Of a stretch of DNA of 64,000 nt, positions 15,117 to 27,981 are shown piece by piece; within the stretch, counting starts at the first letter, position 1; the number at the start of each line of letters is the position of its first letter. Under the pieces are notes generated by a model, which was not told the origin of the DNA, did not search any database, and was given only the letters and a program-made list of their open reading frames with translations. The stretch spans positions 1,426,001-1,490,000 of the forward strand of contig NZ_VFON01000001.1 in NCBI RefSeq assembly GCF_006716085.1, written 5' to 3'. Both the position numbers and the translations under genes were made by a program. The stretch is from Leucobacter komagatae (GTDB taxonomy: Bacteria > Actinomycetota > Actinomycetes > Actinomycetales > Microbacteriaceae).

Positions 15117-15162
15117 GGGGCGCGCGCGTTCGGCTATTCGGCGCCGAGCGCGCGCACGCCCC
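15116..15162. terminator. Long hairpin shared by convergent genes, likely bidirectional terminator
   Basis: GGGGGCGCGCGCGTTCGG (15116-15133) pairs, with small bulges, with CCGAGCGCGCGCACGCCCC (15144-15162). The stop of the ATPase gene opens the left arm and the stop codon of the convergent GntR gene lies at the start of the loop. No clear T-run follows on either side, so termination is inferred from the stem and its position. Confidence 0.5.
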
Positions 15163-15967
15163 AGGAGCCGGCAGCCTCGGGGCTCACCAGGCGCGGCGTT
15201 GAGCGCGGCCCCTGCACATGGAACAGGAACTCGTCGGCGCGGTACGACTGCTGGTACGAGTCGAAGGCTACGTCATCTTCGGTGTAGCTCACCCCGCGAA
15301 CGCGCATCACGGTGTCGCTCGGGCCAAGCCCGAGCTGCTCGCGCTCCCACTGACTCGGGCGGTCTACCTGAAAGACCTGCTCGGCGTACGCTTCCGTGAT
15401 GCCGTGCAGTTCTTCGAGCAGCTCGTAGAGCGATCGCCCGCTTGCAAGCTCGGCCTCGTCAAGCGCTGGCACGAGGCTCAGGGGAAGCGTCGCGCGCTCG
15501 GCAACGGTCGCGCGCCCTTCCCTGCTCCGCACGCGCGAGATCTCCCACACCGGCTGCCCCTCCTGAATGTCGAGGGCGCGCACGTGGTTTCGGCTTGGCA
15601 TGCCGACCGCGATCCGTACGAGCTCCGTCGTGAACTCCACGGGCCGCTCGTCTTGCGAGATGGTGCCGAGCAGCGCACCGGCGCGGCCCGGTTGGCTGAT
15701 GAGCCGCGGCTTCGCGACGAAGGTGCCGAGCCCCTGATGGCGCTCGATGACGCCGTCGTGGTCGAGTTCGTCGAGCGCGCGGCGCACGGAGATGACGCTC
15801 ACGTCGGCTAGCTTCGTGAGCTCTGCGGTGCTCGGGAGCTTGTCGCCCGGCTCGAGGCCCTGTTCTTCAATGAGGCGCAGCACGAGGTCGTAGACACGCT
15901 GGTAGCGCAACTCACGGCCAGCGCCCGGCTCCGCTGGAGCGGCTGCGCCCGATTTTGTTGACGCCAA
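15134..15967 (-). CDS. GntR-family transcriptional regulator with UTRA ligand domain (HutC subfamily)
   Basis: DNA-binding regulator of 277 residues. The N-terminal winged helix (about 20-85) shows the GntR pattern EPGDKLPSTAELTKLADVSVISVRRALDELDHDGVIERHQGLGTFV. The C-terminal 160 residues form a UTRA-type ligand domain (WEISRVRSREGRATVAERATLPLSLVPAL and a terminal ADEFLFHVQ). I chose a TTG start at 15967 because a perfect AGGAGG lies 7 nt before it. The frame is open up to an ATG at 16039, but that start would overlap the putative operator and lacks a ribosome site. The gene lies between the peptide transporter and lysA and is a natural candidate to control both. HutC-type members often bind sites built from GTATA/TATAC halves, which are present next door. 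Confidence 0.88.
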   Translation of the reverse strand: MASTKSGAAAPAEPGAGRELRYQRVYDLVLRLIEEQGLEPGDKLPSTAELTKLADVSVISVRRALDELDHDGVIERHQGLGTFVAKPRLISQPGRAGALLGTISQDERPVEFTTELVRIAVGMPSRNHVRALDIQEGQPVWEISRVRSREGRATVAERATLPLSLVPALDEAELASGRSLYELLEELHGITEAYAEQVFQVDRPSQWEREQLGLGPSDTVMRVRGVSYTEDDVAFDSYQQSYRADEFLFHVQGPRSTPRLVSPEAAGSWGVRALGAE

Positions 15968-16038
15968 GTCAGTACCTCCTGTTAGCCCAGACTCACTTAT
16001 TATTCGCAAGCCTAGGGCAGAAAGCCATTTCCGCGCCA

Positions 16039-16054
16039 TATACTGCTAGGTATA
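16039..16054. promoter_or_regulatory. Candidate GntR operator TATAC-N6-GTATA between gntR and lysA
   Basis: TATAC-TGCTAG-GTATA is a perfect 5-bp inverted repeat with a 6-bp spacer. It covers TATACT, a likely -10 box for lysA, and lies 72 bp from the gntR start. The half sites fit what is known for HutC-type regulators. The right half and centre recur in altered form at two other promoters of the island. Confidence 0.55.
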
Positions 16055-16075
16055 ACAAGAATCGAGGAAGATGTG

Positions 16076-17386
16076 ATGACCGCAGTGCCCGCTCAGGAAT
16101 CCCACGCCGCACGACTTCGCGAGGTGCTCCCAGAGCACAGCGGCGTCACCGAGGCGGGCGAGCTCACCATCGGCGGCGTCGAGGTTTCTGCCCTCGTTGA
16201 GCAGTACGGCACGCCCCTGCACGTGTTTGACGAGATCGGGCTGCGCGAGCAGGCGCGCCGTTTCGTCCGGGGCCTCCGCGAGCGCTGGCCCAACTCCGAC
16301 GTGCTGTTCGCGTCGAAGTCGCTTCCCGCCGTCGGGATGTACAAGATCGCGCAGGAGGAGGGGCTCGCGGTCGACGTTGCCGGTGCAGGTGAGCTGCACC
16401 TCGCGCTTGCCGCCGGCGTCGACCCTGCACGCATCTACTTTCACGGCAACGCGAAGACGACGGCAGAGCTCGCGTTTGCCCTTGAGCGCGGTGTCGGCAC
16501 GATCATCGTCGACAACACCGACGAGCTCGACAGGCTCGACGCGCTGCTCACCGCACCGCAAGCGCTCTTGCTCCGCGTGATTCCCGGCGTCGAGGCCGAA
16601 ACCCACGCGTCACAGGCGACGGGTGGCACCCGCTCGAAGTTCGGGCTTCCGATGGACCAGGCCCTCGCTGCAATTGAGCGCATGCGCGCGCACCCTCTCA
16701 TGCGATTTGAGGGCGTGCACCTGCACATCGGCTCACAGATTCTCAACACCGCCCAGTTCGCCGAGGCCGTCGAAAAGATCTCGAGCGCGGGCCACTTCCC
16801 CACCTACGACATTGGCGGCGGGCTCGGCGTGAAGTACACCCACGCGGATGACGCGCCGAGCGTAGAGGCGTACCTTGACGAGATCGTTGCGGCGGCGAAG
16901 GCGCACCTCCCGGAGGGGTCGCGGCTGCTCATCGAGCCAGGCCGCTCGCTCGTGGCCCGCGCCGGGGTCTCGGCCTACCGCGTCGTCTCAGTGAAGCGCA
17001 CCGGGCAGGTGTTCGTCGCGGTCGACGGCGGCATGGCAGACCAGCTCGACGTTGCCCTCACGCTGCAGCGCTACGAGGCCGTGATCGCGAACCGCGCGGC
17101 TGAGCCCGCGGCGGAAGCCGTGCAGCTCGTCGGCCGCCAGTGTGAGTCGGGCGACCTGCTCATCGACGGCGCCGACCTACCGGAGGCGCGGGTGGGCGAC
17201 GTCGTTGTCATGGCGACGACGGGCGCGTACTCGTACACGACGTCGAACAACTACAACGGCGCCCTGAAACCCGCGATCGTCTTCGTCGCGGACGGCGAGG
17301 CGCGGCTCGTCACCAGACGCGAGACGTACGCCGACCTGCTCGCGACGCACGCGCCCGCGCTTGAGGGCGGCACCGCAACCGACTAG
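16076..17386 (+). CDS. lysA: Diaminopimelate decarboxylase-like PLP enzyme
   Basis: Fold-type III (alanine-racemase-like) decarboxylase of 436 residues, expected to convert meso-diaminopimelate to lysine. Visible motifs: PLP lysine in LFASKSLPAVG (Lys81), GNAKTTAEL, HIGSQI, the glycine loop DIGGGLGV, EPGRSLVARAG, the substrate signature CESGD (about 356-360), and ATTGAYSYTTSNNYNG near the C-terminus. I prefer the ATG at 16076, with GAGGAAG upstream; a GTG one codon earlier is an alternative. lysA is usually near argS or threonine genes in Actinobacteria; here it adjoins a GntR gene and a peptide importer, which suggests a catabolic role on imported cell-wall peptides. A relative acting on another diamino acid cannot be excluded. 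Confidence 0.85.
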   Translation: MTAVPAQESHAARLREVLPEHSGVTEAGELTIGGVEVSALVEQYGTPLHVFDEIGLREQARRFVRGLRERWPNSDVLFASKSLPAVGMYKIAQEEGLAVDVAGAGELHLALAAGVDPARIYFHGNAKTTAELAFALERGVGTIIVDNTDELDRLDALLTAPQALLLRVIPGVEAETHASQATGGTRSKFGLPMDQALAAIERMRAHPLMRFEGVHLHIGSQILNTAQFAEAVEKISSAGHFPTYDIGGGLGVKYTHADDAPSVEAYLDEIVAAAKAHLPEGSRLLIEPGRSLVARAGVSAYRVVSVKRTGQVFVAVDGGMADQLDVALTLQRYEAVIANRAAEPAAEAVQLVGRQCESGDLLIDGADLPEARVGDVVVMATTGAYSYTTSNNYNGALKPAIVFVADGEARLVTRRETYADLLATHAPALEGGTATD

Positions 17387-18433: not shown

Positions 18434-19264
18434 CTAGTCCAGGAAGATGTCAGGGCGCAGCTCGCTGTCCGGGGTTCCGGGCACCGCCGCGTAGCCGGAA
18501 AAGTCGGTGACGCCCTCGCCACGCAGCACGTCCTCTGCGATGAGGGACTGGCCGGTGTACTGGCCCGCTGGCTTCGTGAGCACCGTGTACGCCGCGTCAG
18601 CGTACACCGCGGGCGTGCGGCTCGCGGCCATGACTTGGTCGCCGCCGAGCAGGTTCTGCACTGCCGCGGTCGCGACGGTGGTCGCCGGCCACAGCGTGTT
18701 CGCAGCGACGCCGGTCTTCGCGAACTCAGCGGCCATGCCAAGCGTCGCCATCGTCATGCCGTACTTCGCGAGGGTGTAGCCCGTGTGCCCGCCGAGCCAC
18801 TTGGGGTCGAGGTTCAGGGGCGGCGAGAGTGACAGGATGTGGGGATTCTCGGCTTGCTGGAGCAGCGGGAGCGCCGCGCGAGAGAGCATGAAGGTGCCGC
18901 GCACGTTCACGTCTTGCATGAGGTCGTACTTCTTCGGATTGAGGTCGAGCGTGCCCGACAGGTCAATGACGCTCGCGTTGTTCACGACAATGTCGACCCC
19001 ACCAAACTCGGCACGCGCCTGCTCGACGGCCGACGCGATATCGTCGTCGTTGCGCACGTCGCCCACGATCGCAAGCGCGTTCCCGCCCGCCGCGCGGATC
19101 TCGTCTGCGGCCGTGTGGATCGTCCCAGCGAGCTTCGGGTGCGGGGTATCCGTCTTCGCGAGCATCGCGATGTTGGCGCCGTCGGCCGCGGCGCGCAACG
19201 CAATCGCAAGCCCGATTCCCCTGCTGCCGCCAGACATAAGGATCGTCTTCCCTGCCAGTGTCAT
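18434..19264 (-). CDS. Short-chain dehydrogenase/reductase, HSDL2-like
   Basis: NAD(P)-dependent SDR of 276 residues. It has the dinucleotide loop MSGGSRGIG (about 10-18), GDVRNDDD, NNAS (about 95-98), a SPPLNLDP stretch typical of the hydroxysteroid-dehydrogenase-like 2 group, and the catalytic Tyr163-xxx-Lys167 in YTLAKYG. I chose the ATG at 19264 because AAAGGAG stands 6 nt before it; an upstream extension in the same frame lacks support. The substrate is unknown; HSDL2-like proteins are linked to fatty-acid or sterol metabolism. Probably transcribed independently of the aldo-keto reductase, 37 nt downstream. Confidence 0.88.
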   Translation of the reverse strand: MTLAGKTILMSGGSRGIGLAIALRAAADGANIAMLAKTDTPHPKLAGTIHTAADEIRAAGGNALAIVGDVRNDDDIASAVEQARAEFGGVDIVVNNASVIDLSGTLDLNPKKYDLMQDVNVRGTFMLSRAALPLLQQAENPHILSLSPPLNLDPKWLGGHTGYTLAKYGMTMATLGMAAEFAKTGVAANTLWPATTVATAAVQNLLGGDQVMAASRTPAVYADAAYTVLTKPAGQYTGQSLIAEDVLRGEGVTDFSGYAAVPGTPDSELRPDIFLD

Positions 19265-19481
19265 AGCTACTCCTTTGTGCTGTGGTTCTCTGCGCAAGTC
19301 TGACACGGGCGCGACAAATGCGCGAACGTTGCGTGCAGATCGTGCACTCAGCACATCGGCGACTGACAGTATTGGTGCATGTCGCACGATTCACAGACCG
19401 GCCACCCCGGCACCGGCCGGGTGGACGGCCTCGCTCAACCCATCGAGCCCGACGGCACGCGAAAGACCGCGGAGACGGTTG

Positions 19482-19552
19482 AGGTGGGGGCAGGAGTCGA
19501 ACCTGCGTGCGCAGCCTTGCGGGCTGCTACCTGGCCACTCGGTCACCCCACC
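19482..19552 (-). tRNA. tRNA-Cys (anticodon GCA), with C at position 33
   Basis: A 71-nt cloverleaf folds on the minus strand: acceptor GGTGGGG/CCCCACC, D arm ACC/GGT, anticodon stem GCAGC/GCTGC, four-base variable loop, T arm GCAGG-TTCGACT-CCTGC, and discriminator T73, a cysteine identity base. The anticodon loop reads CCGCAAG, giving GCA. The residue before the anticodon is C, whereas U33 is almost universal. CCA is not encoded. The C32-G38 pair could extend the stem. Confidence 0.9.
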
Positions 19553-19585
19553 TGAGTCGCCAGATCATCTCGGCGACATCACCCA

Positions 19586-19608
19586 TGCTACTGTTTGTCC
19601 TATGACAA
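19586..19608. promoter_or_regulatory. Extended -10 promoter followed by palindrome TTGTC-CTAT-GACAA
   Basis: TGC-TACTGT (19586-19594) is an extended -10 box. It is followed without a gap by TTGTCCTATGACAA (19595-19608), a perfect inverted repeat with a 4-bp spacer that covers the likely transcription start and the ATG at 19602. The same palindrome, in reverse complement, sits in the same place at 24870. A repressor bound here would block RNA polymerase directly. Confidence 0.65.
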
Positions 19609-20411
19609 TGCAACTTTTGGCAGGCGCCTCCGCCGCCGAGGAGGCTCAGCCTGCGACTTCGCCGATCGCATACGTGATTCAACACGTCGCGTTCGAGGGG
19701 CCCGGCACGCTCCACGGCGTGCTCACCGAGCTCGGATACGAGGTCAGGGTTCGACTCGCTGGCCTCGACCCGCTGCACCTCAGCGCGCTCGCCGACGGCG
19801 CGCTCCTCGCCGTACTCGGCGGCCCGATTGGCGTGGCAGAGACGGCGACGTACCCCTTTCTCCACGAAGAGAAACGCCTCATTCGCAAGTGGCTCGAGCT
19901 CGATCGGCCGCTGCTCGGCATCTGCCTTGGGGCTCAGCTCATCGCTGAGGCCATGGGCGCGACGGTTGAGACGCTGCGCTCCCCCGAGATCGGCTACGCC
20001 CCGCTGACACTGACCCAGGCGGGTGCGCGTAGCGTGCTCGCCCCGCTCGCTCACCTCTCGGTACTGCACTGGCACGGAGACCACGCGAGCTTGCCCCCGG
20101 GAGCGCGGCGACTCGCGCAAACGCCAGCGACCCCCGTGCAGGCTTTCGCGAGTGGTGAGCACGTGCTCGGGCTGCAGTTTCACATCGAGGCCGACCACGC
20201 GGCCATTGAGGAGTGGCTCATCGGCCACGCAGTCGAGCTCCGCTCGGCGGGCGTCGACCCGGGCGTGATCCGTGTCCAGGCCTCCGAGTACGGCCCCGCG
20301 CTCTCGTCTGCGGGCAGGGCCGTGCTGCGCGCGTGGCTCAGGCGCCTCCCGAGCCTCCCCAGCGGCCTGGCTCCGTTGCCGGCCGTCGGAGCGGTGAACC
20401 GTGGCAGGTAG
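19602..20411 (+). CDS. Class I glutamine amidotransferase-like protein (GuaA-type domain, stand-alone)
   Basis: A 269-residue protein with a class I glutaminase fold. The nucleophile elbow is LGICLGAQL (Cys108), and the His-Glu pair is LQFHIEADH (His194, Glu196). It lacks any synthetase partner domain. Stand-alone members include gamma-glutamyl hydrolases and amidotransferases of unknown acceptor. No ribosome site is visible; the ATG lies 8 nt behind the -10 box, so the mRNA is probably leaderless. A second ATG two codons on is an alternative start. The next gene starts 11 nt inside its 3' end, indicating an operon. The promoter carries the palindrome shared with serC. Confidence 0.82.
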   Translation: MTMQLLAGASAAEEAQPATSPIAYVIQHVAFEGPGTLHGVLTELGYEVRVRLAGLDPLHLSALADGALLAVLGGPIGVAETATYPFLHEEKRLIRKWLELDRPLLGICLGAQLIAEAMGATVETLRSPEIGYAPLTLTQAGARSVLAPLAHLSVLHWHGDHASLPPGARRLAQTPATPVQAFASGEHVLGLQFHIEADHAAIEEWLIGHAVELRSAGVDPGVIRVQASEYGPALSSAGRAVLRAWLRRLPSLPSGLAPLPAVGAVNRGR

Positions 20412-21228
20412 CGACCGGACGGCCCGCTTTGCCCTCGTCGCGCGGGAGGCGGCCGAGGCGGGCCCCTCGCCGCGGCCGGTCGCGCGCTCTGAGGCCGAAG
20501 TCGAACTTGCTGCGCGGGTGCGCCAGCTCAGGGTCGGCGCCCTCGGCACGGGGTTCCAGACGACGCCGTCACCTGAGCTCAGCGAGCGCTATGCCGAGAC
20601 CCGCTCCGCTTCCGACGCGCTCGCAAGCGTGCTCGAGGTCACCGCGCCGCCCTTCGAGGCGTTCTTCGCGCTGGGTGCGAACGAGCCGACTGCGAACCGC
20701 GCGAGAGCGGACGAACTCGTCCCCGTCATCGCGCCGCACGGGCTCGGTGCCCCGGCATGGCTGCGGGTGGCTGCCGCAGACGGCGTGCTTCCACCCATCG
20801 AGTGCGCCACCGAGGTGCTGCGCTGGTTCGCGGCCCTGGATCGGCCGCCGCGAGCGTCAGCGGTACCGACCGTGCGAACCTCGAGCGCCCACGGCACCGT
20901 CTCCTGGACCCTCCGCTGGGTTTCGGCCGCCGCGAGCCCCACCCCCGAGCGCACAGCCCCTGCGAGACCATCGCCGACTCTCACGGAGCAGGGCGTTGCC
21001 CTCGCAAACTGGCCGACGCTTCCGGAGATGTTCGCGCTGCAGGCCAGGCAGCGCTCACTGACTGCTCCGCTTGTTGACGGGCGCACTTTCACCTGGCTTG
21101 CCGGGGCGCTCCCCGACCGCGCGCTCGCAGCGAGGCACACCTTCGACAGCTCCACCGGCTCGATCCGCATCAGCACCAGGGCCCGCTCTGACCGCGGCAG
21201 CCACGTCGGCGCCCGCACTGTTTTCTAA
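20401..21228 (+). CDS. Unknown protein, translationally coupled to the amidotransferase-like gene
   Basis: A 275-residue protein that I do not recognise. The GTG start lies inside the 3' end of the preceding gene, with GGAG upstream. No signal peptide or membrane segment is visible, so it is probably cytoplasmic. The N-terminal 120 residues are mostly helical and Ala/Glu-rich (SEAEVELAARVRQLRVGALG). The middle has a Ser/Pro/Ala-rich linker (about 185-200). The C-terminal part contains FTWLAGALPDRALAARHTFD and ends in a basic Ser/Thr/Arg tail. Operon position suggests that it works with the amidotransferase-like protein. Confidence 0.75.
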   Translation: MAGSDRTARFALVAREAAEAGPSPRPVARSEAEVELAARVRQLRVGALGTGFQTTPSPELSERYAETRSASDALASVLEVTAPPFEAFFALGANEPTANRARADELVPVIAPHGLGAPAWLRVAAADGVLPPIECATEVLRWFAALDRPPRASAVPTVRTSSAHGTVSWTLRWVSAAASPTPERTAPARPSPTLTEQGVALANWPTLPEMFALQARQRSLTAPLVDGRTFTWLAGALPDRALAARHTFDSSTGSIRISTRARSDRGSHVGARTVF

Positions 21229-21263
21229 GTCAGGTTGCTAGGTCAAGGCCCCGGGTCAGGCCT

Positions 21264-23174
21264 CTAAGCCGAGCCACCCTGCCCTGGCAGCGCCACACGC
21301 GCCTGGTCGCCGAGCATTTGCGCGAGCGCGGCCGGGAGTTCCCGCACCGACCCGATCAAGGTGAGTCCCGGGCGGAAGAGGCCCATTCCACCAGTCACAC
21401 CGATCCCGACTCCGTACACCTCGATCCCCGCCGCTCGAGCCCTCGCCAGTTCGCGCGCAAGGGCACGGCCCTCAACATGTTCGGGGCTACTCGCGAATCC
21501 ACCATCGCTCACGAAGACGAGCACCCGCCGCTGCGCCACCCCTGCGGGCCGCCGGGCGATCAACAGTTCACGCACCGCGAGCTCGATCGCGGGAACGGGG
21601 TGCGTCTCACCCTCCGCCGCCACCATCGCCTCGCGCAGGGCGATCCGGTGGGTGTCGGTAAGCCGTTCGTTGCAGCGCTTCACCAGCGTCGCGGCGCTGT
21701 CGAACACGACAAGGCCGGAGCGCACGGCGCTCGGCTCCCCGCCGGGGTATCGGGTTTCAAGTTCGCGGAGCTCCCTCGCCGCACCCGCGAGCGCTTCGAG
21801 GAAGACCATCGCCGCGTCCGCTGACAGCTGCGCGGCCTGGCCCTGCATCGACCCCGATCTGTCGAGCACGAGCACGGTGTCGGTCCGCCCGAGGCCAGGC
21901 CCGCTCACGGTCACCGGCATGCGCGCCCGGTACACGTTCGGCCGGGGGTCGCCGCCGCGGGCCTCAGCAACCGTCGCGGCCAGGCGACCGGTGTGGATCG
22001 GCCCCGGCTCGGGCCCGGCGAAGCGTGTCTCGCGCTGGGCGACCCGCAGACTCTCCCGCAGCAGGCGCCGCCAGACGTCCCCGACGGCCCGAATCTCCCG
22101 ACGGTACGTGCCGAGGCAGTGCCTGTATTCCGCGAGCGCGGCCGCACTGCCGCGCCGCCACTCTCCTCCGGCCTCGGCGGCCGCCTGGCCGGGCGTCGCT
22201 GCTTCGGCCGCCTCCAGCTGCGCGGTAGAACCGCCGCCCGGCGGCGTGAGCGAGGGGCGTTGAGCGGGCAACGGCGTCTCACTCAGCACTGGTGGGATGC
22301 GACCGGAATCGGCTTCAACCAGGGAACCCGGCTCGGTCGCAGCCGATGGCGGGGACCCCGAAGGATCCGGCTCGCAGAGGTCGCCCTCACGGCGCTGCTC
22401 GTCTGCGTTCGCGCGATCCGGATCCGCGTTCGTTTCACCGCCTGCGTCGTCACCAGCCGCGTTGGCGCTTCCCAGGTCGCCAAGCCCCTCGACCCCGCTC
22501 TGCCCCTCCTGCGGCGGGCCGGCACCGCCGCCCGCGGCATCGCTCAGGCCGCTGCCCGCCGCGAGCGCCTCATACGCGGGCGCAACGGCGGCGAGCAGTC
22601 GGTCGAGGCCGTCGACCGGGTCGGCCGCGCCCGTCCCGGTGAGCGCGGCGCGGGTGACGGGGGTGAACAGCTGCCCGACGGCCTCGCCCACCTGCGTGGG
22701 AAGCCCGAGCGAGGCGCGCTGCACGAGCCCCAGCCACTGCGCGTTGGGTGGCCAACTGGTGAGCGCTTCGGGAATGTCGCGGCGAACGGCCCCAATGAGT
22801 TGTCGCCCGAATCCCGGTTGCGCCTCGAGCAGCGCGCGCTGCGCCTGCACCCGGTCGAGTGTCACCATGAGCGTGTGGAGATCGGGGCGAGCCGCGAGCA
22901 CTCGCGCGCGACGGTTCTCGCGCGCCGGGGAGCAGCCCGCGCCCGTGACGAACCAGAGCTCGCGCAGCGTCAGCGCGACCGCAGCGTCGACTCCGTGCCC
23001 GCGCCGCGTGAAGTACTCGCGCCCCACAGCAAGGCGCTCACCTTCGAAGCGCCACTCCTCACCCGCGAGAGTGGTGACGCGCACCCCAAGGAGCCGGCCC
23101 GCCGCGGCGAGCGCGCCGTCAAACTCCGCCGCCTCAGCGCGCTCAGCGTCCCGCTCGCTGCCGTCTCCGCTCAC
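21264..23174 (-). CDS. VWA-domain protein with disordered linker, partner of MoxR-type ATPase
   Basis: A 636-residue protein in three parts: an N-terminal folded region (about 1-215), a long low-complexity Gly/Pro/Glu/Ala linker (about 216-345), and a C-terminal von Willebrand factor A domain. The metal-ion-dependent adhesion site looks complete: LVLDRSGSMQGQ (about 432-443), a Thr in EGETHPVPAIELA, and an Asp in VLVFVSDGGF. AAA plus VWA with an acidic linker is the plan of CobS/CobT-like and MoxR/VWA chaperone pairs. Starts with GTG overlapping the stop of the ATPase gene (GTGA). No chelatase large subunit is nearby, so the client is unknown. Confidence 0.85.
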   Translation of the reverse strand: MSGDGSERDAERAEAAEFDGALAAAGRLLGVRVTTLAGEEWRFEGERLAVGREYFTRRGHGVDAAVALTLRELWFVTGAGCSPARENRRARVLAARPDLHTLMVTLDRVQAQRALLEAQPGFGRQLIGAVRRDIPEALTSWPPNAQWLGLVQRASLGLPTQVGEAVGQLFTPVTRAALTGTGAADPVDGLDRLLAAVAPAYEALAAGSGLSDAAGGGAGPPQEGQSGVEGLGDLGSANAAGDDAGGETNADPDRANADEQRREGDLCEPDPSGSPPSAATEPGSLVEADSGRIPPVLSETPLPAQRPSLTPPGGGSTAQLEAAEAATPGQAAAEAGGEWRRGSAAALAEYRHCLGTYRREIRAVGDVWRRLLRESLRVAQRETRFAGPEPGPIHTGRLAATVAEARGGDPRPNVYRARMPVTVSGPGLGRTDTVLVLDRSGSMQGQAAQLSADAAMVFLEALAGAARELRELETRYPGGEPSAVRSGLVVFDSAATLVKRCNERLTDTHRIALREAMVAAEGETHPVPAIELAVRELLIARRPAGVAQRRVLVFVSDGGFASSPEHVEGRALARELARARAAGIEVYGVGIGVTGGMGLFRPGLTLIGSVRELPAALAQMLGDQARVALPGQGGSA

Positions 23175-24808
23175 GTGAGGAGGCCCTGTCCGACGAGAAT
23201 CAGCCTGAGCACCGCCCGGTCGGCAGCGTGCATCACCCCGGCGGTGAACCGCTCGAGTGCGCCCGTGAGTGCCGTCGCCCCGCCCTGCAACATCACCCCT
23301 TGGAGCACCGCGGCGAGCGTGCGCGGCGCGATGACGGTCTCTGCGAGGCCCGGCTCATCATCGAACTCGCGCTCGGTGCCGCGGTAGCGTTCCAGCGCCG
23401 CGTCGGGGTTCCCGACGAACACCTGCTGGCTGATGAAGGCCGCGCGTGCGAGTGGGGTGAGTTCGGCGATACCGAGGCCCTGCGGCAGCGACCCGTCCGG
23501 GGCAGACACCACCGCAGCCGCGAGCAGCAGGTTTTCGGCAGGGACGTCGGAAATGTCTGCCCCCGAATCCGGGTAGTGCACTCGGAAGGTCCCCGACCCG
23601 AATCGATTCACGAGCTCTGCGCTCAACGGCTCAATGCCGCGGTATCTGTGGGGTGCGTACTCGTTGGCCGTTGCGAGCACGACGAACCCGCTCGCAATCT
23701 CGACGGTCAACCCAGGCTGCTCCTGCACCGCGAACCGCGCTCCCGGGCGCAGCTGCAGGATGCGGTTCAGGCGCTTGAGGAACTCGGGCGGCATTGCGTT
23801 GATCTCGTCGAGGATGATGGGCACGCCGCGCTGCATCGCGCGCAGCAGCGGGCCCGGCGCGAACTCCGTCACCGTTGCATCGCCCGACGCCCGAAGCTCG
23901 TGAGCCCCGATGATCTGAGCTCCGGTGATGTCGCCGTACCCCGAGACGAACTCGTGGGTAGTGCCGCCCAGCCCGGCAAGGTGCTCGGCGAGGGCGGTCT
24001 TGGCACCGCCGGTTTCGCCGATGAGCAGGATCGGCGCGCCGGTGAGCACCGCGGGCGTCGCCGCCGCGATCAGCTCACGCATTTGCGGGTTCAGCACGAG
24101 CCCGGCCTCAAGCTCACGCCGTGCCTGTCGGATGCGAATCTGGAGCACTGCGTCAAGCACCGCATCGGGCTCCGGCGTTGGCTGGGCTGCCTGCGATGCC
24201 TGCGTTGCCTGCGGGGCATAACCGATCGAGGCGCCGCCCGCCGAGGTGCATCCGTCAGACGCTGCGATGGTCTCCTGTTCCGCACGCGTGAGCGACCGCG
24301 AACGCCTGGCCGCGTGCCGCACGAGGGCATCGACGCGATCCTCGTTCCCGGCACCATCGACCGTTCGCACCAGTGCAATCGCCCGGCGCAGCGCCCAGGC
24401 GCGCGCGGTACTCGCTGCGGCGAGCGCCCGGGCAGCTTCGGGGTCAGCGAGCAGCTGCTCCCACTGCTCGGAGAGCTCGCGCACGCGAGCGAGTCCGTGT
24501 GCGATCGACGCTTCGGCGTCGAGCTCAGGTCGGGTGCGCGGCTCACCTCGGACGCTCCCCCATTCCCGCTGAACGCGGGTCGCGGGGCGCTCGAGTTCCT
24601 CCCCGTAGTGGTGCAGCCAGTCAGCCCGGAGCACCCGCGTCGCTTCGTGGAGCGCAGCGCGCACCTCTCGGGCGTTCGTCACGAGCGGCGATTCGGGCAC
24701 CGAGAGCTGGGAGGCGTCGACCGTGTCGCCCACCCACAGCGGCGTCTCCGATGCCTGGGGCACGGCTCCCGCCGTTTGGAGGGTTGGTGCTGCGCCTAGT
24801 GCTGTCAT
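23171..24808 (-). CDS. MoxR/CobS-like AAA+ ATPase
   Basis: Cytoplasmic AAA+ ATPase of 545 residues. About 240 N-terminal residues are helical and of unknown function. The ATPase core has Walker A LLIGETGGAKTAL (about 261-273), Walker B IILDEINAMPP (about 320-330), sensor 1 VVLATANEY and an arginine-containing ELVNRFGSG. The DEIN/MPPE pattern and the following helical domain resemble AAA_5 proteins such as MoxR, GvpN and CobS. It forms an operon with the VWA gene, overlapping by 4 nt, and is divergent from serC across 127 bp that holds the TTGTC-N4-GACAA palindrome. TACGAT at 24843-24848 (minus strand) is a possible -10 box. Confidence 0.86.
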   Translation of the reverse strand: MTALGAAPTLQTAGAVPQASETPLWVGDTVDASQLSVPESPLVTNAREVRAALHEATRVLRADWLHHYGEELERPATRVQREWGSVRGEPRTRPELDAEASIAHGLARVRELSEQWEQLLADPEAARALAAASTARAWALRRAIALVRTVDGAGNEDRVDALVRHAARRSRSLTRAEQETIAASDGCTSAGGASIGYAPQATQASQAAQPTPEPDAVLDAVLQIRIRQARRELEAGLVLNPQMRELIAAATPAVLTGAPILLIGETGGAKTALAEHLAGLGGTTHEFVSGYGDITGAQIIGAHELRASGDATVTEFAPGPLLRAMQRGVPIILDEINAMPPEFLKRLNRILQLRPGARFAVQEQPGLTVEIASGFVVLATANEYAPHRYRGIEPLSAELVNRFGSGTFRVHYPDSGADISDVPAENLLLAAAVVSAPDGSLPQGLGIAELTPLARAAFISQQVFVGNPDAALERYRGTEREFDDEPGLAETVIAPRTLAAVLQGVMLQGGATALTGALERFTAGVMHAADRAVLRLILVGQGLLT

Positions 24809-24860
24809 TGTCCTTCGTCCCCACTCGGCGCGCTCGCGCCGGATCGTAGCGTCATGCCAA

Positions 24861-24883
24861 TGCTACACTTTGTCATAGGACAA
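24861..24883. promoter_or_regulatory. Extended -10 promoter followed by palindrome TTGTC-ATAG-GACAA
   Basis: TGC-TACACT (24861-24869) is directly followed by TTGTCATAGGACAA (24870-24883), the exact reverse complement of the 14-mer at 19595-19608. The site lies in the divergent region between serC and the AAA/VWA operon, 62 bp from the ATPase start, so one bound regulator could control both directions. Confidence 0.65.
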
Positions 24884-24935
24884 AAACATTCGAGGTGAGA
24901 TTTCGCCTCGCGCCACCGCGAAGGGACACTCAGAC

Positions 24936-26087
24936 ATGGATCTCACATACCCACGCACGCTCCCGCGCTACCCGCTGGGCGACGGACGATTCGGGAGCGG
25001 CCCTGCCAAGATCCGGCCCGCTCAGCTCGGGCAGCTCGCGGCCGACCCGCATCGCGTGCTGGGCACCTCCCATCGGCAGGAACCTGCAAAGCGGCTGGTC
25101 GGTCGCATTCAAGAGCAGCTGCGCGAACTCTTCGATGCCCCCGACGGGTACGAAGTCGTCCTCGGCAACGGTGGCTCCACGGCGTTCTGGGACCTCGCCG
25201 CGTTCTCGCTCATCGATCAGCGGGCCCAGTGCCTCGATTTCGGCGTCTTCGGCAACCGCTTCGCGCGGGCCGCGGCGGCGCCCTGGCTCATGACGCCAGA
25301 CGTGCGCACCGCTCCGCACGGCGAGCTCGTACTCGCCGAACACGCTGAGAGAATCGATACGTATGCGTGGCCCCACAACGAGACGTCAACGGGCGTACTG
25401 TCCCCCGTTCGGCGCGTAGGGGCCACTGACGGCGCCATCACGCTCATCGACGCGACGAGCGCGGCAGGCGGCGCCGAGTTCGATGCACGGAACGCCGATG
25501 TCTACTACTTTGCGCCGCAGAAGAACCTTGGCTCTGAAGCGGGCGTCTGGCTCGCACTGCTCTCGCCCGCGGCGATCGAGCGAACGGGCCGGATAGCGGC
25601 ATCGGGTCGGTACATCCCAGATTTTTTGAACCTCCACCTCGCCATCGAACAGTCACGCAAGCGGCAAACCCTGAACACTCCAGCGCTCGCGACCCTCATG
25701 CTGCTCGACAGCCAGCTCGGCTGGATCCTTGAGCGCGGCGGCCTCCCCTGGGCAGCCGGGCGCACCCGCTCACTGTCCGCCGCGATCTACGAGTGGGCGG
25801 ACCGCAGCGAGTACGCGGCACCGTTCGTTACGAACCCGGCGCTCCGCTCACCAACGAACGTGACCCTTGAGATCGACCCGCGCGCCGACGTCAAGACGCT
25901 CACGGCGCTCCTCCGAAGCGCAGGAATCCTCGACACCGACGGGTACAGCGGGGTCGGGCGCAATCAGCTCAGGATCGGCACGTACGTCTCCGTCGACCCA
26001 GCTGACGTCAGCCAGTTGCTGCGAAACCTCGATCTGCTCATCCCGTACACCATCGAGTCGGGCGGGCGCCTGGCACGCCAGAGCTAG
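24936..26087 (+). CDS. serC: Phosphoserine aminotransferase
   Basis: Converts 3-phosphohydroxypyruvate to phosphoserine in serine biosynthesis; 383 residues, cytoplasmic, PLP-dependent fold type I. It shows the actinobacterial SerC pattern: FGSGPAKIRPAQL near the N-terminus, GNGGSTAFWD (about 78-87), NETSTGV (about 148-154) and the Schiff-base Lys196 in YYFAPQKNLGSEAG. AAGGGA lies 10 nt before the ATG. The promoter has the same -10/palindrome block as the amidotransferase-like gene, which would tie serine supply to the function of that operon. Its stop is 22 nt from the convergent ABC-F gene. Confidence 0.93.
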   Translation: MDLTYPRTLPRYPLGDGRFGSGPAKIRPAQLGQLAADPHRVLGTSHRQEPAKRLVGRIQEQLRELFDAPDGYEVVLGNGGSTAFWDLAAFSLIDQRAQCLDFGVFGNRFARAAAAPWLMTPDVRTAPHGELVLAEHAERIDTYAWPHNETSTGVLSPVRRVGATDGAITLIDATSAAGGAEFDARNADVYYFAPQKNLGSEAGVWLALLSPAAIERTGRIAASGRYIPDFLNLHLAIEQSRKRQTLNTPALATLMLLDSQLGWILERGGLPWAAGRTRSLSAAIYEWADRSEYAAPFVTNPALRSPTNVTLEIDPRADVKTLTALLRSAGILDTDGYSGVGRNQLRIGTYVSVDPADVSQLLRNLDLLIPYTIESGGRLARQS

Positions 26088-26109
26088 GCTCTGGCCGAGT
26101 GCCGGTGTC

Positions 26110-27981
26110 TTACCCGAGCGCCTCCGAGAGCTCCAGCCAGCGCTCCTCGAGCCCCGCGACCTCCGCTTCGAGCGCGGTGATCTTCGCCATCTCCGCGTTC
26201 AGCAGCGCATAGTCCGCCTGGTCGAGGGTCGCGAGCCCGTCGCGCGACTTCGCGATATCGCCCTGCATCCTCTCCATCTTGCGCTCCACCGACGCCAGCT
26301 CCTTCTGGGCATCGCGCAGCTCGCGCCCCGACAGCTTTGGCTGCGCCGGCTGCGAAGCCTTCGAACCCTGCTGCCCGGTCTCCGAGACCGTGGGCTGGCC
26401 CGGCTTCGCCGATCCCACGCCCGCGGCAGCGGCTTCCTTCGCGCGTTCCTCGGCCTGGCGCAGCTTGAGGTACTCGTCGACGCCGTTCGGGAGGTGCCGA
26501 AGCCGCTTGTCGAGGATCGCATACTGCTGATCGGTGACGCGCTCAAGGAAGTAGCGGTCGTGCGAGACCACGATAAGGGTGCCCGGCCACGAGTCGAGCA
26601 GGTCTTCCATCGCCGCAAGCATGTCGGTGTCGAGGTCGTTAGTCGGCTCGTCGAGGATGAGCACGTTCGGCTGATTGAGCAGGATCAGGAGCAGCTGCAG
26701 GCGTCGCTTCTGACCGCCGGAAAGATCTTTCACGGGGGTCGACAGCTGCGCGCTCGTGAACCCCATCCGCTCGAGCAGCTGCCCCGGAGTGAGGTCCTGC
26801 GCCTTCGAGCCTGAGCCAACCGTGAAGCTCGTACGCAGTCGCCCGATGACGAGGCGCACCGGCTCGTTCAGGTGCGCCTCGAGCTCGTCGAGGCGCTGCG
26901 TGAGCTGCGCGACGTTCACGGTCTTGCCGGTCTTCACGGTGCCGCTCGTCGGCTCCACCGCGCCCGAGATGAGCCCGAGTAGCGTCGATTTACCCGCGCC
27001 GTTCACGCCGAGAATGCCTGTGCGCTCGCCCGGGGCGATTCGCCACTCGACGTCGCGCAGCACCTCGCGGGGTTCCCCCGAAACCGGGTCGGTGTACGAG
27101 ACGCCAACATCGAGGATGTTCACGACCTCCTTGCCGAGGCGTGAGACGGCCATCGACTGCAGTGACACCTTGTCGCGGATCTCGGGGACGTCGGCGATGA
27201 GTTCGTTCGCGGCGTCGATCCTGAACTTCGGCTTCGCCGTGCGCGCGGGCGCGCCACGCCTGAGCCACGCGAGCTCCTTGCGCGCGAGGTTCTGACGCTT
27301 CTGCTCGACAACCGCGGCCTGCCGGTCGCGCTCGACGCGCTGCAGGATGTAGGCGGCGTACCCGCCCTCGAAGGGTTCGACGATGCGGTCGTGAACCTCC
27401 CAGGTCGCCGTGCAGACCTCGTCGAGGAACCACCGGTCGTGCGTGACGACGAGCAGCGCGCCCTGCCCGTTCGGCCAGCGGCGCTTCAGGTGGTCGGCGA
27501 GCCAGGCGACGGCCTCGACATCGAGGTGGTTCGTCGGCTCGTCGAGAAACAGTACATCCCAGTCGCCGACGAGCAGGCGGGCAAGGGCAACTCGGCGGCG
27601 CTGGCCGCCCGAAAGCGACTCGAGCTCGGCGTCCCACGGCAGGTCTGAGACGAGCCCCGCGATGACCTCGCGCACCTTCGGGTCGCCCGCCCACTCGTAC
27701 TCGGGCGTATCGCCGACGATCGCGTTGCCGACGGTCTCGCCATCGTCGAACTGGTCGGCCTGGTCGAGCACCCCGATCGTGGTGCCGCCGCGGTAGGTGA
27801 CGCGGCCCGAGTCGGGCTCGCGCCGCCCGGCGAGCATCATGAGGAGGGATGACTTGCCGTCGCCGTTGCGACCGACGATGCCGATGCGATCTCCCTCGTC
27901 AACGCCGAGCGTCACCGAGTCGAACACCGTCTTCGTGGGCACCTCAAGATGCAGGGCCTCAGCCCCGAGAATATGCGCCAT
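26110..27981 (-). CDS. ABC-F family ATPase, Uup-like
   Basis: Soluble protein of 623 residues with two ABC domains and no membrane part, the ABC-F plan; these proteins act on the ribosome. Domain 1: Walker A GRNGDGKSS (about 37-45), signature LSGGQRRR, Walker B VLFLDEPTNHLD. The inter-domain arm follows. Domain 2: Walker A GVNGAGKST, signature LSGGQKRR, Walker B VLILDEPTNDLD. The C-terminal 90 residues, after an Ala/Gly/Pro/Gln-rich linker, form a coiled coil (RELRDAQKELASVERKMERM), as in Uup. In many Actinobacteria an ABC-F gene follows ispE; here 3.7 kb of other genes lie between. Confidence 0.92.
   Translation of the reverse strand: MAHILGAEALHLEVPTKTVFDSVTLGVDEGDRIGIVGRNGDGKSSLLMMLAGRREPDSGRVTYRGGTTIGVLDQADQFDDGETVGNAIVGDTPEYEWAGDPKVREVIAGLVSDLPWDAELESLSGGQRRRVALARLLVGDWDVLFLDEPTNHLDVEAVAWLADHLKRRWPNGQGALLVVTHDRWFLDEVCTATWEVHDRIVEPFEGGYAAYILQRVERDRQAAVVEQKRQNLARKELAWLRRGAPARTAKPKFRIDAANELIADVPEIRDKVSLQSMAVSRLGKEVVNILDVGVSYTDPVSGEPREVLRDVEWRIAPGERTGILGVNGAGKSTLLGLISGAVEPTSGTVKTGKTVNVAQLTQRLDELEAHLNEPVRLVIGRLRTSFTVGSGSKAQDLTPGQLLERMGFTSAQLSTPVKDLSGGQKRRLQLLLILLNQPNVLILDEPTNDLDTDMLAAMEDLLDSWPGTLIVVSHDRYFLERVTDQQYAILDKRLRHLPNGVDEYLKLRQAEERAKEAAAAGVGSAKPGQPTVSETGQQGSKASQPAQPKLSGRELRDAQKELASVERKMERMQGDIAKSRDGLATLDQADYALLNAEMAKITALEAEVAGLEERWLELSEALG

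Follow-up and report, generated by a model that had tools for sequence, protein, structure and literature searches.

The 64,000-nucleotide stretch of the Leucobacter komagatae genome analyzed here (contig NZ_VFON01000001.1, positions 1,426,001 to 1,490,000, hereafter the window) carries two copies of a 14-bp palindrome, TTGTCCTATGACAA (operator 1) and its reverse complement TTGTCATAGGACAA (operator 2), each abutting an extended −10 box without a spacer. We propose, with a probability of roughly 0.82, that this 14-mer serves as operator for a MocR-type transcription factor encoded on contig C2 of the same genome, which presumably senses pyridoxal phosphate (PLP) and most likely represses its targets when PLP is plentiful. 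Genome comparison makes a strong case for the identity of both operator and regulator, and shows that the pairing of site with regulator, a gene content related to PLP and the arrangement of −10 box, operator and start codon are conserved; repression by PLP is likely, and we infer both the effector and the sign of control. The initial annotation had placed both palindromes and their extended −10 boxes correctly, and had expected one repressor serving one shared function that could not be guessed from the individual genes. A single regulator is indeed very probable and repression likely, the function appears to be PLP metabolism, and the regulator, which had gone unrecognized, can be named as a MocR-type factor related to PtsJ and PdxR.

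Distribution of the site and its regulator

The extended pattern TGnTAnnnTTTGTCnTAnGACAA has exactly four perfect places in the 3.75-Mb genome, while the reversed control pattern is absent even when three mismatches are allowed. At that tolerance the true pattern gains four rows, of which three read the same palindromes in reverse and the fourth is a different place (C1:1902371). With the extended site at four places only, the concern that the 14-mer might occur by chance at many unrelated promoters is not borne out. For the 14-mer alone, 0.0026 copies would be expected in 3.75 Mb (at the window G+C of 0.674) versus the four found. The loose palindrome TTGTC-N4-GACAA is not enriched, with 40 places in the genome at up to one mismatch versus 55 for its reversed control, and, with two mismatches allowed, 8 in the window versus 12.9 expected. 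A fifth exact loose palindrome (C1:2168084) was discounted, as it lies within a winged-helix gene and has no −10 box. In a collection of named genomes, the pattern TANNNTTTGTCNTANGACAA was found in at least 118 stretches from many unrelated taxa, so that the pattern alone is not diagnostic there.

Sites 3 and 4 lie 3.1 kb apart on contig C2. One stands at the start of yggS-alr, divergent from the regulator gene, and the other at a pyridoxal-kinase-like gene that diverges from one for a DegT-type aminotransferase. YggS and Alr exceed their NCBIfam cut-offs; the kinase stays below those of the named families (172.3 against 342, others lower), and 'pyridoxal kinase' is therefore a family-level reading. 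The regulator combines PF00392 (residues 19-81) and PF00155 (residues 128-434), both above cut-off, as fits the MocR subfamily of GntR regulators, and its best NCBIfam family is PtsJ, the 'MocR-like B6 salvage transcription factor' (533.8 bits). It carries an SMSKAL motif at residue 290, whose lysine may be the PLP-binding one.

Site and regulator occur together across genomes. The regulator is present in 11 of 54 Leucobacter genomes (E≤1e-60), and TAnnnTTTGTCnTAnGACAA, at up to one mismatch, in the same 11, although the two counts are not independent, as one site adjoins the regulator gene. In the family, Microbacteriaceae, an orthologue (E≤1e-90) was found in 42 of 398 genomes and 12 of 85 genera; one of the 42 is this genome, and the best-scoring 29 of the 41 others were read. 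In all 29 of these other-genus loci, TTTGnCnTAnGnCAA (up to one mismatch; 19 exact) is found no more than 250 bp from where the regulator match starts, and in none does it recur elsewhere in the locus. The gene divergent from the regulator is pdxS in 26 and yggS in 3 of them, and a kinase-like match (26-30% identity) follows or overlaps the regulator end in 22. An operator at pdxST and/or pdxK, the mark of a PdxR-type regulon, is thus seen at the kinase gene here and at pdxS in 26 of the 29 loci.

Because the element beside the regulator faces pdxS or yggS, the common theme would be PLP and not serine supply as such, which had been suggested from the window alone; the other serC copy of this genome (C1:1781972) lies at none of the four sites, and most targets are PLP genes. 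The expectation that the site would be conserved upstream of orthologues is upheld, as it is kept in other species and genera.

Operator position and competing explanations

The genus scan returned 31 rows, 30 of them as loci, which reduce to 24 sites distinct by their 36-base context (the kinase sites of genomes G003 and G004 share one). In 22 of the 24, an ATG falls within the operator at a fixed distance from the −10 box, and in 21 of these it opens a reading frame of at least 259 codons, an architecture that predicts leaderless mRNAs whose start codon lies inside the operator. The two remaining sites, both at serC, have the palindrome inverted and lack such an ATG; the serC leader in the window carries a ribosome-binding-site-like GAAGGGA at 24920-24926. 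TGnTAnnnT precedes the operator throughout the 24 sites, with the TG intact in 23 and changed to TC in one; this invariance is largely imposed by the search pattern, which includes the TA and the T but not the TG before the −10 box.

A site downstream of the −10 box and over the predicted transcription start suggests repression: the bound regulator would block initiation at high PLP and would release the operator as PLP falls. PLP is suggested as effector by the MocR family, as described in PMC5320631, and by the targets, which in this genome would be yggS-alr, the pyridoxal-kinase-like gene, amidotransferase-Unk2 and serC, and plausibly the divergent AAA/VWA pair.

A distinctly less probable alternative keeps the same regulator and site but has the regulator activate, or respond to an amino compound, for example gamma-aminobutyric acid (GABA), in place of PLP. 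Activating PdxR proteins are known by title (references listed in PMC9997740), and in this genome and seven others (G028, G044, G030, G033, G172, G103 and G356) the gene after that of the regulator encodes a GabT-like class III aminotransferase. However, the operator occupies a repressor position, the facing gene in 26 of the 29 other-genus loci is pdxS and not a GABA gene, and the regulator scores only 45.9 bits against the GabR family, far from its cut-off of 600. It is very unlikely that some other regulator binds the 14-mer, such as the UTRA-type factor encoded at 15134-16039, a GntR-family member nearby, as operator and MocR gene share the same 11 of 54 Leucobacter genomes and lie side by side in 29 of 29 other-genus loci. 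That UTRA-type gene, on the minus strand, is itself divergent from a decarboxylase-like PLP enzyme gene (16073-17386). Chance palindromes or a repeat family with no regulatory role, with which the lack of over-representation of the loose palindrome would agree, can be practically discounted given four perfect extended sites versus none in the control and the conservation of position and gene content over species and genera.

Several observations nonetheless weigh against a PLP-responsive MocR repressor acting at these sites. The regulator falls below the equivalog cut-offs of both PtsJ (NF012025; 533.8 against 573 bits, with the regulators of three relatives at 494.0-514.4 bits) and PdxR (NF052282; 151.3 against 320). 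Reference titles in PMC9997740 describe the PdxR proteins of Corynebacterium, Listeria and B. clausii as activators. The reversed control of the genus scan gave one match, in G025, a genome without the regulator, and at one G028 site (L046; C8:71715-71734, L388 8714-8729) the ATG opens a frame of only 25 codons, which may point to a gene since lost or to a site that serves some other transcript. No site was found in 18 kb around the pdxS of this genome, unlike in relatives, and no conservation is visible by eye between this genome and G004 in the stretch where the AAA promoter would lie.

Window genes, second copies and clusters

Both window promoters read toward the plus strand (Table 1), site 1 into amidotransferase-Unk2 (19602-21228) and site 2 into serC (24936-26087), so that the initial annotation was right about what site 1 drives and about the position of site 2 between serC and AAA/VWA. 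Its picture of five genes flanked by one operator type holds for the single operator type; the genes in between number four, and since site 2 drives serC, outside the interval, the two sites do not enclose a block. AAA and VWA (24808 down to 21264) are transcribed away from site 2, divergent from serC across the operator, which lies inside the upstream region of AAA and makes their joint control plausible. G004 shares the window arrangement (by tblastn), with operator 2 identical in position and sequence (L044).

Table 1. Features of the window promoters and genes, and the candidate regulator gene.
Feature	Position	Strand	Remarks
Extended −10 TGC-TACTGT, amidotransferase promoter	19586-19594	+	From sequence
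Operator 1, TTGTCCTATGACAA	19595-19608	+	Contains ATG 19602-19604, predicted start codon of a leaderless mRNA
Class I glutamine amidotransferase, 269 aa	19602-20411	+	NCBIfam NF005458, 277.9 bits (cut-off 250)
Unk2, 275 aa	20401-21228	+	Third member of AAA-VWA-Unk2 module; second copy in genome
VWA-domain protein, 636 aa	21264-23174	-	VWA above cut-off
AAA ATPase (AAA_5), 545 aa	23171-24808	-	AAA_5 above cut-off; second copy in genome
Extended −10 TGC-TACACT, serC promoter	24861-24869	+	From sequence
Operator 2, TTGTCATAGGACAA	24870-24883	+	Between serC and divergent AAA/VWA pair
serC-type phosphoserine transaminase, 383 aa	24936-26087	+	TIGR01366, 439.6 bits (cut-off 401.65); second copy
MocR-type regulator gene	contig C2, L011 7003-8373	-	GntR and aminotransferase domains

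The AAA and VWA genes overlap in one operon and encode the nucleotide-binding motifs GETGGAKT and IILDE and the VWA motif DRSGS. By our own reading the ATPase appears MoxR-like; it scores 22.9 bits, below the cut-off of 27, against Pfam AAA_3 (PF07726), which we take to be the MoxR model. Unk2 has no Pfam or NCBIfam family and its predicted fold no PDB match, each at E≤0.001 (mean predicted local distance difference test score 74.8 for a model built from 13 sequences). It represents an unnamed protein family that belongs to a genus-core AAA-VWA-Unk2 module and has a match in 48 of 54 Leucobacter genomes. A plasmid-borne block was considered and set aside, as a search of 72,556 plasmid records (E≤1e-5) gave no Unk2 match. 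Upstream of promoter 1, 33 bp from its extended −10 box, lies a divergent tRNA-Cys(GCA) gene (19481-19552, minus strand) found by ARAGORN. An RNA element was also considered and set aside: no Rfam match reached the gathering score in 18500-27000, where the tRNA-Cys is itself unlisted.

The window serC, AAA and Unk2 genes are second copies, which comparison shows to be clustered with the regulator in two genera. SerC matches 53 and AAA 49 of the 54 Leucobacter genomes, and second copies of these two and of Unk2 are found in the same four, this genome, G004, G028 and G044, all of which have the regulator. Two rows in G012 and G043 for AAA, and in G005, G041, G050 and G053 for Unk2, are different parts of the query, and a second Unk2 row in G020 is weak and has stops; for VWA, second copies were seen at individual loci. 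In quick trees of tblastn pieces (32 rows for SerC and 34 for AAA, with core copies being those given as loci, and with L169 and L170, which duplicate L218 and L217, omitted for SerC), the operator-linked SerC copies (six rows from six genomes and two genera) form one group apart from 26 core copies, at an SH-like approximate likelihood ratio of 100, and the six operator-linked AAA copies are likewise apart from 28 core ones. Of the four places read for the core AAA-VWA-Unk2 module, three (this genome, G003 and G028) have pyr/nusB/efp-like genes next to it and the fourth (G025) has aro-like genes; no B6 genes were recognized beside it in any of the four, with neighbors named by eye from translations.

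Other members of the proposed regulon follow the regulator to different degrees. A close second YggS (77-91% identical to the query, the query aside) occurs in exactly the 11 regulator genomes, all of which but G042 also have the distant core YggS; G043 has neither form. The kinase is present in 6 of the 11, with a fragment in G038, and the cluster copy of Alr in the same six. PdxS is found in 31 of the 54 genomes, including 10 of the 11 with the regulator. This genome's own pdxS (G000:C1:1926499-1927107) has no operator found nearby even though the regulator is kept, an apparent rewiring of the regulon.

All genes of the window block except the amidotransferase are clustered with the regulator and kinase in G028, G044 and, in another genus, G172 and G103; these contents are those given by tblastn rows, as open reading frame calling merged or misplaced some frames. 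In G044, GabT and the regulator diverge across a site from Alr, a second site precedes Unk2, with VWA, AAA and DegT on the other strand, and a third precedes the kinase and SerC; the G028 cluster differs from this order in a single extra small frame between Unk2 and Alr. In G172 and G103, SerC and the kinase diverge across a site from DegT, AAA and VWA, followed by Unk2 and YggS, which diverge across another site from the regulator and GabT. AAA and VWA in these four clusters also read away from a site on the side opposite its −10 box. Since AAA, VWA, Unk2 and SerC thus stand in the regulator's neighborhood in two genera, the window block resembles a piece split off from such a cluster. In G033 (contig C6, L173), an amidotransferase about 54% identical to that of the window follows yggS behind an operator, joining the regulon by another arrangement.

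A possible PLP-loading regulon and known systems

The spare copies may serve to make or re-load PLP enzymes under B6 limitation. A more specific proposal, built on gene content and offered tentatively, is a regulon for the loading or repair of PLP enzymes, in which the kinase and YggS would supply and carry PLP, and the MoxR-like ATPase, VWA protein and Unk2 would open or re-load SerC2, Alr2, DegT and GabT, all switched on when PLP leaves the MocR repressor. If correct, this would mean a MoxR/VWA machine that serves an organic cofactor and is controlled by a sensor of that same cofactor, a case seen in none of the listed papers on MoxR, VWA, B6 and PdxR, by title and start of abstract. Data for a PLP-carrying role of YggS and a PLP-donating one of PdxK are given in PMC13353753, which describes the route of newly made PLP to apo-enzymes as unclear; with kinase, carrier, client enzymes and AAA+ remodeler in one regulon, the system would offer a concrete genetic handle on this question. 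More generally, an anonymous palindrome becomes a testable vitamin B6 regulon with a candidate regulator, which ties the AAA/VWA pair and an orphan family to PLP metabolism. Among the titles and starts of abstracts listed on MoxR, VWA, pyridoxal, vitamin B6 and PdxR, this B6 regulon was not seen.

Among the closest known systems is PtsJ, which represses pdxK in Salmonella (PMC13353753). It shares with the regulator described here the best family match, a B6 kinase target and the proposed repression, and differs in that the regulator scores below the family cut-off, the regulon adds yggS, alr, serC, the amidotransferase and, by position, AAA/VWA/Unk2, and the start codon falls within the operator. 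Among the targets of published PdxR regulons are pdxK, COG325 proteins and a GuaA-family amidotransferase, and 20% of MocR regulons have motifs made up of two inverted boxes (PMC5320631, Suvorova and Rodionov 2016). These regulons resemble the present one in a MocR factor beside pdxS in relatives, in those three kinds of target and in the inverted-box motif; the regulator itself scores far below the PdxR equivalog cut-off. The main text of PMC5320631 does not mention serC, yggS or Leucobacter, and the motif may already stand in its supplements.

MoxR/VWA pairs such as NorQD, RavA-ViaA and CbbQO act as cofactor-insertion or reactivation machines (PMC9976466, PMC4660213 and PMC6987120) and likewise consist of an AAA ATPase adjoining a VWA-domain protein. 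Clients named at the start of such abstracts are a nitric oxide reductase, respiratory enzymes, rubisco and, for RavA, the lysine decarboxylase LdcI, whereas the partners here are PLP genes and a third protein whose predicted fold has no match. ClpX gives PLP access to ALAS in mitochondria (PMC10743472), a precedent for an AAA+ unfoldase that opens an enzyme to this cofactor. ClpX is no MoxR/VWA pair, and the present case is one of gene clustering only. Finally, the logic recalls Zur regulons, in which zinc controls backup paralogues and a cofactor-sensing repressor governs second copies of housekeeping genes; the cofactor here would be PLP, at low levels of which the second copies may cope better.

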